From Clostridiales bacterium (GTDB lineage: Bacteria; Bacillota; Clostridia; Lachnospirales; WRAX01), in assembly GCA_031265685.1 (NCBI GenBank), contig JAISCI010000014.1:1-47249 (forward strand): a stretch of DNA of 47,249 nt, in the 5' to 3' direction. Shown in pieces: positions 26 through 45,738 of the stretch. Position 1 is the first letter of the stretch. Every line of letters starts with the position of its first letter. A program made the translations under genes and the position numbers. Under the pieces are notes generated by a model. That model did no database searches. It had not been told where the DNA came from and was given only the letters and a program-made list of their open reading frames with translations.

Positions 26-115
26 GAATTTTGCGTGATGGAATTTCGCGTGGTTCGAAGCATTATCGTGTGGTTCAAACGATAATGCGATGCGAAATTC
101 GTCCAAGCAAAATTC
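26..115. repeat. Triple-nested short palindrome (locus 1)
   Basis: Three inverted-repeat pairs lie one inside another: GAATTTTGC (26-34) with GCAAAATTC (107-115), GAATTTCGC (41-49) with GCGAAATTC (92-100), and GCATTATCG (60-68) with CGATAATGC (80-88). All 9-bp arms pair perfectly and are separated by short TG-rich spacers (GTGATG, GTGGTTC). This is the first of about sixteen loci of one repeat family. It lies downstream of the metA stop codon. Confidence 0.85.
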
Positions 116-205
116 AGATATTGTCTAAGACAACATCAAACGTCGGTCAACGACGGGAAATCAGCCGAAAAGACATCGATTCCATCTATAAATACAGGTT
201 TAAGT

Positions 206-5829: not shown

Positions 5830-6198
5830 GATGAATTTGCGTGGGTCCCTAAGCACCCGCATAATTTTGAGAATATGAGAATTTTAGGCCTTAGAAATGG
5901 CGTGTATACTGGGTTTGCTCTTATTCTCAAAATTATTTGGTATTTTGAGAATATGAAAACGGCTATTTTAAGAATGGCGCAAATACGCCATGCTTTCTTA
6001 TTCTCAAAACTCTCTTATTCTCAAAATTACCCGGAGTTTTGAGAATAAGAGCAAATCCGCATGGGTACTGGATTTGAGGCCCCTAAAATTCTCATATTCT
6101 CAAAATTATCGGAGTGCTTAGGGATGGACACGCTCAAACCGACGCTCTAAGTCTAACATAGAGCCTCTGAATTTCGCTTGAACCAAGCAAAATTCATC
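5830..6198. repeat. Outer palindrome arms enclosing the 279-bp element
   Basis: GATGAATTTGC (5830-5840) on the left and GCAAAATTCATC (6187-6198) on the right are complementary except for one T. They therefore bracket the 279-bp element, and also GAATTTCGC (6169-6177), which pairs with GCAAAATTC (6187-6195) to make a 27-bp hairpin of the common family. Confidence 0.6.
5846..6124. mobile_element. 279-bp MITE-like element with about 44-bp terminal inverted repeats
   Basis: The ends TCCCTAAGCAC (5846-5856) and GTGCTTAGGGA (6114-6124) are exact inverted repeats. After a 4-nt mismatch the inversion continues with ATAATTTTGAGAATATGAG and onward to about 5890 and 6079. Inside lie further nested inverted repeats (TTTGCTCTTATTCTCAAAA with its complement, and ATTTTGAGAATA copies). 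There is no ORF. The element cuts the 5' end of the SpoVG-like gene. Its A+T content is well above that of the flanks. Confidence 0.8.
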
Positions 6199-6426
6199 GA
6201 TAGTATCGATACCCTATGCCAGCTCATGTCAATCCGTTGTGGGTCAGCAGGATTTCGGGTTGTAGTTTGTTTTGCTCGTTGGTGTAGGAGGACTGCACGA
6301 AATCAGACTGCCGGTAATCTCCTGCTTACCGCCAAGGGTCGGAATCTGACTCATACCCTTTTCATCACCACGTGGTCGGTGTATTGGTTACTCAATTTTG
6401 AGTAACCAAGGGCTTCGCTCAAAGAT
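6199..6426. other. Non-coding stretch with a perfect palindrome
   Basis: I recognise no gene here. The notable structure is GGTTACTCAA (6386-6395) and TTGAGTAACC (6398-6407), a perfect 10-bp inverted repeat around TT. On the minus strand a short frame of about 36 codons (MSQIPTLGGKQEITGS...) exists but resembles nothing I know. Confidence 0.5.
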
Positions 6427-6515
6427 GAATTTTGCTTGGTTCGAAGCATTTTCGCGTGGGTGAATTTTGCGTGAACCAAGCAAAATTCTGTCATGCGAAA
6501 ATGCGATGCGAACTT
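6427..6515. repeat. Nested palindrome (locus 3)
   Basis: GAATTTTGC (6462-6470) pairs with GCAAAATTC (6480-6488). This sits inside GCATTTTCGC (6446-6455) with GCGAAAATGC (6495-6504). The outer GAATTTTGC (6427-6435) faces a degenerate GCGAACTTTTC. It lies just downstream of the PIN gene stop. Confidence 0.8.
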
Positions 6516-6926: not shown

Positions 6927-6937
6927 AGATCCACCTC

Positions 6938-6979
6938 TGACTTTTGCGTGGTTCGAGCAAAATTCGACGGGCAAAATTC
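6938..6979. repeat. Short palindrome in the holin 3' end (locus 4)
   Basis: GACTTTTGC (6938-6946) faces GCAAAATTC (6957-6965), and a second GCAAAATTC follows at 6971-6979. The unit is translated in the holin frame as the tail DEFCPSNFARTTQKSEV. Confidence 0.65.
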
Positions 6980-7234
6980 ATCTGGAGCGGCAGTCAGAGC
7001 TCCGGCGACGCTCCTTGTCAGATCATTGACGGCGGCTTCGATGGCCGCGTCGTCGATCTGGAATCCTTTTTCAGACAAATAATTGAGTACGTATCGTTTC
7101 TTTTCGGCTCCCTGCCCGGGACCGCTGAAAATTTGCTCGGCGGCCCCTACCGCGATCCGGATGTAATCAAGCGTCCGCGTCAGTTTGTCGGCGTCGGCCC
7201 GCGCTTTGACCGCGGGAACAACGAACGCCGTCAA

Positions 7235-7263
7235 AGAATTTTGCTTGATTCACGCAAAATTCT
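7235..7263. repeat. Single 29-bp palindromic unit inside the holin gene (locus 5)
   Basis: AGAATTTTGC (7235-7244) and GCAAAATTCT (7254-7263) are perfect 10-bp arms around a 9-nt loop. It is the cleanest single unit in the window. In the holin frame it reads QNFA-stop-IKQNS. Confidence 0.9.
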
Positions 7264-7406
7264 GAGCCACGATAAGAGTAATCGCCGCCTGAAAGATAGG
7301 CGTCAGGTCTAACATAAAACCACTCCTGTTACTATATATTTAGTGGTTAATCCCCCGGCAAGCCAGCCGTGGGTTAACCCAACTCATGCCTAAGCGCCAT
7401 GCCGCA

Positions 7407-7759: not shown

Positions 7760-7848
7760 GAAGTTTGCGTGAATTGAAGCATTATCGCTTGATGGAATTT
7801 TGCGGGTTTAGGCAAAATTCGTTCAAACGATAATGCGATGCAAACTTC
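7760..7848. repeat. Triple-nested palindrome (locus 6)
   Basis: GAATTTTGC (7795-7803) with GCAAAATTC (7812-7820) lies inside GCATTATCG (7779-7787) with CGATAATGC (7828-7836). These lie inside GAAGTTTGC (7760-7768) with GCAAACTTC (7840-7848). All arms are perfect. The order of unit types differs from locus 1, where GCATTATCG is innermost. Looser related arms extend to about 7726 and 7890. Confidence 0.85.
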
Positions 7849-8977: not shown

Positions 8978-9228
8978 AGAAAAGATTTTTCGAGTCAGCG
9001 GCAAGGAAGTTCGCGCGGCAGAATTTCGCGTCGCGTTTTCGCTTGGACGAATTTTGCTTGGTTCTAAGAAATTTCGCGTGGATGAATTTTGCTTGGTTCA
9101 CACAAAATTCTGTCAAGTGAAATTTCGACGCAAAATTCTGCCGAGCGAAAATGCTTCAAACCAAGCGAAATTCACCCACGCAAACTTCCGACCCGCGCGG
9201 ACGCGCGTCGCTTTGAAAAATCTTTTCT
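8978..9228. repeat. 251-bp multiply nested palindrome between cyclase and phosphodiesterase genes
   Basis: The outermost arms AGAAAAGATTTTTC (8978-8991) and GAAAAATCTTTTCT (9215-9228) are perfect 14-bp inverted repeats. Inside them are many family arms in mirror order: GAAGTTCGC with GCAAACTTC, AGAATTTCGC with GCGAAATTC, GTTTTCGCTTGG with GAGCGAAAATGC, and two GAATTTTGC units with matching CAAAATTC copies. There is no ORF of interest. A transcript crossing from the cyclase to the phosphodiesterase would fold into a very long imperfect hairpin. Confidence 0.8.
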
Positions 9229-29884: not shown

Positions 29885-30908
29885 GATCTCGCATAACTAC
29901 CTGCTCTATATCGCCGCGTTCGCGTGCGCTTTCGCGGTTTCGCTGCTGCTTACGCCCGTTACGAAGCGTATAGCGGCGCACTTCGGCGCGATCGACTATC
30001 CGCGTTCGCGCGGGATGCACAAAGAACCCGTGCCGCGCATGGGCGGAATGGCTATCGTCGTCAGCTTCCTGCTGACCATGCTCGTGCTTACGCCGTTCGT
30101 TGAGGACCTGCGCACGCGGCAGTTCGCCGGGTTCGCGTGCGGCGCGGTCATAATCTTCCTGCTCGGCATGGCCGACGACGTTTATACGCTTGGCGCAAAG
30201 CCTAAACTGTGCGTTCAGGTGATCGCCGCGGTCGTCGCCGTCGCCAGCGGGATCAGGATCAACACGTCGTTCCTGCCGTTCTACGGAATACTGCAGCCGT
30301 TTGAGATACCGATAACCGTCGTCTGGATAGTGGGTCTGACGAATGCCGTCAACCTGATCGACGGCCTGGACGGTCTGGCGGCGGGTGTCAGCTCGATCGG
30401 CTCGCTGTGCATAATGGCGCTGTGCTTCCTCTCGGGCGGAGAGATGGCGCTGGTGTTCTCAGTTACGCTGACCGGGGCGACGCTGGGTTTCCTGCCACGC
30501 AACTTCAACCCCGCCGAGGTGATCATGGGAGACACCGGCTCGACGTTTCTCGGGTACGTGCTGGCGGTGTCTTCGATAATCGGGGTGTTTAAGTACTACA
30601 CCCTGCTTTCCGTCGTTATCGCGCTGCTGGCGCTGGCGCTGCCGATCTTTGACACCGCCTTCGCGATGACGCGCCGCGCGATAAAGGGCAAGCCGATCAT
30701 GTCTCCGGACAGGGGGCATCTGCACCACCGTCTGATCGACTCGGGCATGTCCCCGAAGACGGCGGTCGTGTTGCTGTGGGCGGTATCGGCGCTCTCCGCC
30801 GTAATCGCGATACTGATAGCGGCGCGGGACTACCGCGCGGTGATAATCGTCCTCGCGGCGCTCGCGCTCCTGTCTCTCATGGTCTTTTTGTATAGAAGGA
30901 GGTTATGA
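29874..30908 (+). CDS. tagO: Undecaprenyl-phosphate GlcNAc-1-phosphate transferase (TagO/WecA type)
   Basis: Transfers a GlcNAc-1-phosphate to the lipid carrier, the first step of teichoic acid or other wall glycan synthesis. 344 residues and about ten membrane helices. Family motifs: MHKEPVPRMGG, MADDVYTLGAKPKL (Mg2+ Asp pair), NAVNLIDGLDGLAAG, MGDTGSTFLGY and RGHLHHRL. The Gly-Asp-rich loops are cytoplasmic. ATG 29874 overlaps rpiB. The final codons contain GAAGGAGG, the ribosome binding site for the thioesterase gene. Confidence 0.92.
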   Translation: MTDEISHNYLLYIAAFACAFAVSLLLTPVTKRIAAHFGAIDYPRSRGMHKEPVPRMGGMAIVVSFLLTMLVLTPFVEDLRTRQFAGFACGAVIIFLLGMADDVYTLGAKPKLCVQVIAAVVAVASGIRINTSFLPFYGILQPFEIPITVVWIVGLTNAVNLIDGLDGLAAGVSSIGSLCIMALCFLSGGEMALVFSVTLTGATLGFLPRNFNPAEVIMGDTGSTFLGYVLAVSSIIGVFKYYTLLSVVIALLALALPIFDTAFAMTRRAIKGKPIMSPDRGHLHHRLIDSGMSPKTAVVLLWAVSALSAVIAILIAARDYRAVIIVLAALALLSLMVFLYRRRL

Positions 30909-30960
30909 CACGGTATATAAATCGGAATTCAGAATAGACTACGCCGGGACGGGTCCGGAT

Positions 30961-31683
30961 TTGAGGGCCGGGGCGGCGCAGCTTATCGCCATAGCGCAGG
31001 AGGCGGGTATGCGGCATATGTCCGAAACACCGTACTCGATGAGCGCTCTGCTTTCGGCCGGATTCGGCTGGGTGATACTGGCCGGGCGGTACGTGTTCGG
31101 CCGGCGCCCCGCCTACGGCGAGACCGTAGCCGCCGAAACCAGCCAGTCCGAACCGAAAGGTTTCCTCACAAACCGCAATTACCGTATCACGGACGCTTTG
31201 GGCGGGACGGTCATGACGGGGATAGTGTCGTGCGTGTACACTGATCTGTCGGCCAGAAAACCCGTCCGCGTACCGCCGGAACAGCGCGAGGCGTTCGGTT
31301 CGGAGCCGCCGCTGATCCCCGCCGATTATAAAATACCGGATATGCCCGGCGAACGGACAGAGACGGAGTTCGCCGCCGCGCGGCGGGATACGGATACTAA
31401 CGGCCACGTCAACAACATAAAGTATATCGAATGGGCGCTGGATCAAATACCCAAAGATGTCTATCTCTCCCGGAACGCGCGTGAATTGCGCGCGGTATAT
31501 AAAAAGGAGTGCGCCGCGGGCGCCCCCGTCCGGATAGAGACGGGCCGTATCGAGGACGCGAAGGAATTTTGCGTGAACGAATTTCGCTTGAACCACGCGA
31601 AATTCCATCAAGCAACATTCTATGTCTCCGATATATACGCGGCCGGCGAGCTTTCGGCAAGGGTATACACGGAATGGGAATGA
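30961..31683 (+). CDS. Acyl-ACP thioesterase, with 5' frameshift and an in-frame palindrome insert
   Basis: Releases fatty acids from acyl carrier protein. Two hot-dog halves: the first about 30913-31290 (MSETPYSMSALLSAGFGWVI, FLTNRNYRI), the second with RRDTDTNGHVNNIKYIEWAL. Homology starts at 30913 (VYKSEFRIDYAG) but no start codon is in that frame. The natural ATG 30905, just after GAAGGAGG, is one base out of frame. A lost G in CACGGTAT would explain this, so the stated start (TTG 30961) is only formal and the gene may be broken. Near the 3' end, 57 bp of nested palindrome (31564-31620) adds KEFCVNEFRLNHAKFHQAT between ..RIEDA and FYVSDIYAAGE without disturbing the frame. Confidence 0.75.
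   Translation: MRAGAAQLIAIAQEAGMRHMSETPYSMSALLSAGFGWVILAGRYVFGRRPAYGETVAAETSQSEPKGFLTNRNYRITDALGGTVMTGIVSCVYTDLSARKPVRVPPEQREAFGSEPPLIPADYKIPDMPGERTETEFAAARRDTDTNGHVNNIKYIEWALDQIPKDVYLSRNARELRAVYKKECAAGAPVRIETGRIEDAKEFCVNEFRLNHAKFHQATFYVSDIYAAGELSARVYTEWE
31564..31620. repeat. In-frame double palindrome inside the thioesterase gene (locus 10)
   Basis: GAATTTTGC (31564-31572) faces GCAACATTC (31612-31620, one mismatch), enclosing GAATTTCGC (31579-31587) and GCGAAATTC (31597-31605), both perfect. It is 57 bp, exactly 19 codons, with no stop in the thioesterase frame. Confidence 0.88.
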
Positions 31684-34404: not shown

Positions 34405-34560
34405 GATTTGCGCCGAATATTTTTCGAGTTCGCGTGTCGGAAGTTTGCTTGGACGAATTTTGCTTGGATGAATTTTGCTTGGTTCACGCAAAATTCTGTC
34501 ACGCAAAATTCTAGGCGCGAACCGAAAAATATTCGGCGTCCTTTAGAGTGGAATTAGTAT
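34388..34560. mobile_element. 173-bp MITE-like element A
   Basis: Termini ATACTAATTCCAC (34388-34400) and GTGGAATTAGTAT (34548-34560) are perfect 13-bp inverted repeats. The inversion resumes at GCGCCGAATATTTTTCG with CGAAAAATATTCGGCG. The core is GAATTTTGC twice and GCAAAATTC twice, nested. If TA is the target duplication, the element proper starts with CTAATTCC, as expected for IS630/Tc1-type MITEs. A second copy is at 39544-39727. Confidence 0.85.
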
Positions 34561-39543: not shown

Positions 39544-39727
39544 ATACTAATTCCACTTAGCTTGTGCCAAATACTTTTTCGAGCTTGCCGTGTCCGCGCG
39601 GTTCTGAATTTTGCTTGGATGAATTTTGCTTGGATGAATTTTGCTTGGTTTACGCAAAATTCTGTCACGCAAAATTCCAGGCGCGGACCGAAAAAATATT
39701 CGGCGTCCTTTTGAGTGGAATTAGTAT
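39544..39727. mobile_element. 184-bp MITE-like element B
   Basis: Same 13-bp termini as element A (39544-39556 and 39715-39727), same second inverted block (CGAAAAAATATTCGGCG near the right end) and same core with GAATTTTGC three times and GCAAAATTC twice. The two copies differ mainly in the left arm. The right end touches the amidase stop codon: the final A of its TGA is the first element base read on the minus strand. Confidence 0.85.
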
Positions 39728-45593: not shown

Positions 45594-45710
45594 GTGAAAA
45601 TAGGCTGGATTTCAGAAGCGGCGGTTGCGGCCCATTATGGATTCTGCGTGAATCTCACAAAATCCGGATGTGCCGGAAGATTTATACCGTTAAGTTTTCT
45701 GGTTGCCTGA
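45594..45710 (+). CDS. Possible 38-residue small protein
   Basis: GTG 45594 follows GGGAAGGAAATTT, and upstream in an AT-rich stretch lies a promoter-like TTGATT followed by TATTAT near 45571. The product starts MKIGWISEAAVAAHYGFC and ends PLSFLVA. Part of it (FCVNLTK) is encoded by a degenerate palindrome unit (GATTCTGCGTGAATC). No family recognised; it may not be translated. Confidence 0.3.
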   Translation: MKIGWISEAAVAAHYGFCVNLTKSGCAGRFIPLSFLVA

Positions 45711-45712
45711 CG

Positions 45713-45738
45713 GAATTTTGCGGCATCAGGCAAAATTT
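45713..45738. repeat. Short palindrome (locus 16)
   Basis: GAATTTTGC (45713-45721) faces GCAAAATTT (45730-45738) with one terminal mismatch, loop GGCATCAG. Confidence 0.7.

Follow-up and report, generated by a model that had tools for sequence, protein, structure and literature searches.

The window, a 47,249-nt stretch of DNA from a Clostridiales bacterium (GCA_031265685.1, contig JAISCI010000014.1), contains a gene for an acyl-ACP thioesterase, and inside this gene lies a nested palindrome. Intergenic members of the same repeat family are also found in the window. The features are given below with their strand and basis.

30910..31683, plus strand: gene for a FatA/FatB-like acyl-ACP thioesterase with a double hotdog fold; both Pfam Acyl-ACP_TE domains (N and C), Foldseek
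31564..31620, plus strand: in-frame nested palindrome of 57 nt (19 codons), encoding EFCVNEFRLNHAKFHQATF; sequence, ssDNA folding, absence from homologues, AlphaFold disorder
31564..31578, plus strand: left outer arm GAATTTTGCGTGAAC, one 15-nt step, the modal spacing of same-direction units
31579..31605, no strand: inner hairpin of 27 nt, GAATTTCGC-TTGAACCAC-GCGAAATTC; core pattern and folding
31606..31620, minus strand: right outer arm CATCAAGCAACATTC, one 15-nt step; modal spacing
6160..6504, no strand: two intergenic family members, 6160-6200 and 6417-6504; sequence
6936..7275, no strand: two intergenic family members, 6936-6967 and 7228-7275; sequence
7779..7836, no strand: intergenic family member, 26-nt core class; core pattern
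9035..9155, no strand: intergenic long multi-layer palindrome, arms 9003-9075 / 9084-9156; sequence and folding
34439..34511, no strand: intergenic family member, nested layers; sequence
39606..39678, no strand: intergenic family member, nested layers; sequence
45701..45737, no strand: intergenic family member, 26-nt core class; core pattern

Both acyl-ACP thioesterase domains of Pfam (N and C) are recognized in the gene product, and the Foldseek matches of its model in the PDB are FatA and bacterial acyl-ACP thioesterases. An AAGGAGG ribosome-binding site is located at 30896-30902 and an ACG codon at 30910, 7 nt downstream, while no in-frame ATG, GTG or TTG is present at the expected start. 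The first canonical in-frame start is TTG 30961, the use of which would cost the first β-strand. A preliminary description of this DNA had reported a frameshift in the 5' part of the gene. This was not borne out, as the frame is open through the ribosome-binding site, homology begins at VYKSEFRIDY, and what the gene really lacks is a canonical start codon. Judged from the sequence, the ACG may serve as a weak start codon, or it may have arisen by mutation or by an error in the sequence.

The 57 nt at 31564-31620 read GAATTTTGCGTGAAC-GAATTTCGCTTGAACCACGCGAAATTC-CATCAAGCAACATTC and are built in two layers, a 27-nt hairpin within 15-nt arms. When we folded them as single-stranded DNA, they formed one nested hairpin of -15.1 kcal/mol (z = -5.05), and none of 200 shuffles was as stable. 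The gene frame is stop-free across all 57 nt, and the encoded peptide, EFCVNEFRLNHAKFHQATF, is flanked by ..RIEDAK and YVSDIY. The preliminary description had recognized an in-frame 57-bp nested palindrome of exactly 19 codons without a stop inside the thioesterase, and the two layers, the significant hairpin, the membership in a repeat family and the open frame are in agreement with it. Its codon boundary (RIEDA / FYVSDIYAAGE) was off by one residue. Since the unit measures 27+30n nt, the length of exactly 19 codons follows from the unit as such and is by itself no evidence of selection.

The stretch from YKKEC to VYTEW was compared with that of 80 homologues from named genomes. It comprises 60 residues in the window's thioesterase and 35-50 residues in 79 of the homologues, all of which are at least 10 residues shorter at the insert region. 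The closest homologue has 42 residues in this stretch, and subtraction of the 19 inserted residues leaves 41 here, within the normal range. Seven thioesterases from the same genome family show a gap at the insert position. The homologues compared are all from outside the genus, with identities of at most ~36-39%, and the absence of the insert was seen at the protein level. The lone long homologue (61 residues; L161, from a spirochaete) carries, in the same turn, an unrelated loop rich in Ala and Gly, indicating that length changes are tolerated there. The AlphaFold model, based on a 41-sequence alignment, has a mean pLDDT of 91.9, and its only segment with pLDDT below 50 is residues 224-235, within the insert (residues 222-240), which sits between the last two strands at a β-hairpin turn. 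A gap of insert length and a surface loop were both among the checks proposed in the preliminary description, and none of the homologues compared has a conserved aligned segment at this position.

The palindrome belongs to a high-copy family. The core pattern AATTTYGC-N6..16-GCRAAATT has at least 231 exact matches in the 2.2-Mb genome. The reversed control gave 0 matches, and 15 same-family relatives had 0-2 each; in the window, 8 exact matches were found versus 0 expected. This genome has 71 sites with the 27-nt form, which was found neither in 294 other genomes of the order nor in viral contigs. For a stricter two-layer form, genome_contigs (~85,000 species) gave no match, although this collection may lack the records closest to the window's genome. 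No Rfam family matched in the window. The host is a Clostridia genome of 59% GC, and its relatives of the same family (Defluviitaleaceae / Clostridiales MAGs) presumably come from termite guts. Family elements also lie at contig starts (window 26-118; G000 C5:30-53; C13:17-40), suggesting that assembly breaks may fall in repeats and that the copy number is possibly underestimated.

We then examined the distribution of the elements in a 737-kb sample, which consists of 40 stretches and the window and corresponds to about one third of the genome; its genes were predicted with a simple script based on codon usage. Among 155 element loci, 140 were intergenic, 1 was at a gene edge and 14 were in frame inside ORFs; because the stretches were picked partly for good matches, the in-gene fraction is an estimate, and ORF-based detection is biased toward in-frame copies. 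The density over the 737 kb was 0.024 per kb of CDS versus 0.95 per kb of non-CDS (binomial p = 6e-81). Per kb of spacer it was ~1.3 in convergent, ~1.1 in co-directional and ~0.8 in divergent gaps.

The repeat unit is a palindrome of 27 nt (or 26 nt) with the form GAATTTTGC-loop-GCAAAATTC. The half-units GAATTTTGC are ordered >>><<<; the modal step on either side is 15 nt, and at the centre the spacing is 18 or 17 nt. Single units thus measure 26-27 nt and elements of the main class 27+30n nt, and most arrays have one or two layers. Because of the 15-nt step on each side, nesting usually preserves the frame, and the element is readable in most frames, with the peptides EFC.N.AKF and ILRE..KI both present. 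Deviating array spacings of 16, 28 and 35 nt, together with the 26-nt core, which is not a multiple of 3, indicate that frame preservation is a tendency and not a rule. When we compared 23 nested joints, opposite arms of the same layer shared variants (0.60 mismatches per 9 versus 1.20 for random pairs), and spacers were alike along an arm and unlike across the palindrome (1.39 of 6 versus 3.78). This pattern fits insertion of a whole palindrome into the asymmetric loop of an older one, and it disfavours a simple tandem duplication of one arm, because opposite arms would then not co-vary. An HAD-like hydrolase gene (L081:1228-1971; G000 C127) carries a long nested array, NDFCATEFCVTEFCMNQAEFEQAEFEQAKFTQAKF, whose spacers differ between the arms; identical neighbouring units within an arm of this array suggest that tandem duplication may contribute.

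In-frame copies were also found in other, unrelated proteins, as a genome-wide search proposed in the preliminary description was expected to reveal. The hosts identified by Pfam include RsmA, Mfd, AroB-AroA, the HAD hydrolase, aconitase, an ABC ATPase, ScpB and IlvE, and further hosts are a pyruvyl transferase, a helicase and a GyrI-like protein; one of the coding matches, the degenerate one at L067:16448, may be due to chance. RsmA has 61 residues where aligned homologues have 17-20, giving ~41-44 extra residues, and this gap recurs in the comparison with a homologue of solved structure (query 86/131, chain 91/94). Mfd has 70 residues where its nearest relatives have 49-53, and its insert peptide is NEFRVNQAKFPDEFRANQAKF. 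The copies lie at the N-terminus of aconitase, in the linkers of the double ABC ATPase and of HisA-HisIE, and at the C-termini of ScpB (L072:18994-19590) and IlvE (L076:14613-15710), where the element encodes the tail and supplies or adjoins the stop codon. HisA and HisI-HisE form one ORF (L087:12886-14274; G000 C19) with the linker GGILPEPAKFRPEPAKFWPESAKFRQE, in which a unit of the 26-nt class is repeated three times in tandem with a period of ~21 nt, and from the sequence a gene fusion through the repeat is possible. AroB and AroA are fused in one ORF (L070:1856-4150; G000 C1), with the family element within the AroB part.

Based on these observations, we consider it likely that the palindrome at 31564-31620 belongs to a MITE-like selfish repeat, which is lineage-specific, forms hairpins and is present in high copy number, and that this copy is translated into a disordered surface loop of 19 residues. 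The proposal that a repeat unit was inserted in frame and added a peptide segment is supported by the homologue gap, the other coding copies and the predicted disordered loop, which all agree. We infer that the repeat is mobile, that it nests by insertion into loops, that the insert is translated in the proteins, and that the thioesterase retains its activity despite the insert. New units would insert into the loops of old ones and produce nested arrays that grow by ~15 nt per side, a net growth of ~30 nt or 10 codons per nesting. Insertions in coding regions would mostly be removed by selection, and copies would pile up in spacers, while copies of 27+30n nt, keeping the frame and being stop-free in most frames, would survive in genes as a minority, in proteins that tolerate a flexible loop, linker or tail. 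The thioesterase copy would have landed in the turn of the last β-hairpin, to be read there as a disordered surface loop, and the in-gene copies in general probably add a floppy peptide loop to ordinary proteins. The search for a mobilizing enzyme covered the Y1 transposase and reverse transcriptase. Y1 (RAYT) transposase (PF01797) is absent from the 91%-complete genome, with positive controls, and was rejected as the mobilizer. The sole reverse transcriptase ORF of the genome (L206:481-1452; G000 C53) is truncated, has the appearance of a group II intron type and has no Rfam match nearby; neither search identified a mobilizing enzyme.

Here, we need to consider other explanations. If the thioesterase were a decaying pseudogene, the insert would be neutral debris and no modified enzyme would be made, as the ACG at the expected start might suggest. 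However, the frame is open over 260 residues, the family-invariant residues are retained in the family alignment, and the model is confident across the whole fold, so that we regard this as somewhat unlikely; in addition, the in-frame copies in the core genes mfd and rsmA make the phenomenon independent of the thioesterase gene. The palindromes might instead be selected functional sites for regulator binding, termination or nucleoid organization, with the coding copies as by-products, and both the complementarity kept between same-layer arms and the mostly intergenic location are consistent with such a role. On the contrary, the roughly even density across the three gap orientations argues against terminators or promoters, the 27-nt form is found in no relative among the 294 genomes of the order, Rfam gave no match, and the copies in unrelated genes add loops without a common role, which leaves this explanation quite improbable.

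It might also be that the inserts are transcribed and then skipped by the ribosome (translational bypassing), adding no residues. Hairpin elements of a comparable kind lie within genes here, and such bypassing has been reported for the palindromic elements of Magnusiomyces mitochondria, as cited in PMC6649704. Under bypassing, stops or a length that is not a multiple of three would do no harm, whereas each of the 14 coding copies is stop-free and in frame, an argument that the ORF-based detection weakens somewhat. We also looked for elements splitting a gene out of frame, and in 4 tight same-strand gaps with an element the flanking proteins were unrelated and no single gene had been split. We therefore give bypassing very little weight. 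An ancestral, lineage-specific thioesterase loop that is palindromic by chance would be favoured by the small number of close homologues available, but it is scarcely credible given a 57-nt copy with 93% identity outside called genes (C66:1399-1455) and hundreds of family members dispersed in the genome.

The selfish palindrome proposed here resembles the Rickettsia palindromic elements (RPE; Ogata et al. 2000, 2002) in being palindromic and multi-copy, and in lying both in spacers and in frame within unrelated genes, where the host protein tolerates the peptide. The parallel drawn in the preliminary description thus holds. RPE are ~150 bp long and nearly half intragenic according to a review (PMC10969869), whereas the present elements measure 27+30n nt, are nested in 15-nt steps, are about 9% intragenic, and reside in a Clostridia host of 59% GC. 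The best reading is a MITE-like selfish palindrome that works like RPE but would form a separate family, set apart by host and unit size. As for the target-site duplication expected of a MITE, a 3-bp duplication was found at 0 of the 23 nested joints, a test that concerned this length and these joints. Short hairpin-forming palindromes of Volvox carteri organelle DNA (PMC2670323) are also high in copy number and often inserted into one another to form larger nested elements, but they are only intergenic and intronic, whereas the present family also occurs in frame in genes. REP/REPIN with RAYT (PMC3116915, PMC3733652) are 20-40 bp palindromes of high copy number and mostly extragenic location; the present family differs by its 15-nt nested layers, its in-frame coding copies and the lack of a Y1 transposase. 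The coding palindromes of Nematomorpha mitochondria (PMC6649704) are likewise inverted repeats within protein genes, but they are long perfect repeats of up to 284 bp, actively kept perfect, with no dispersed sequence family.

Coding palindromes in bacteria were known before mainly from Rickettsia. The title of Ogata 2002 calls them a feature unique to Rickettsia, and the 2024 review (PMC10969869) treats them in other prokaryotes as only conceivable. The present family provides an independent case in Clostridia with core genes (mfd, rsmA, aroB) as hosts and a simple quantized architecture, through which it can be tested how selfish DNA enters proteins unbroken and how nested palindromes grow. 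As a tentative extension, a self-nesting selfish palindrome with a net step of ~30 bp and mostly stop-free frames, whose insertion and growth in genes stay in frame, might have a unit length suited to coding DNA, and it could perhaps steadily provide the core enzymes of a Clostridia lineage with new flexible loops and linkers, or even bring about gene fusions such as hisA-hisIE.

The window also contains a separate AT-rich repeat family, CTTATTCTCAAAATTA, at 5846-6129, with direct and inverted copies in one spacer, and its arms at 5846-5888 and 6082-6124 are 93% complementary.
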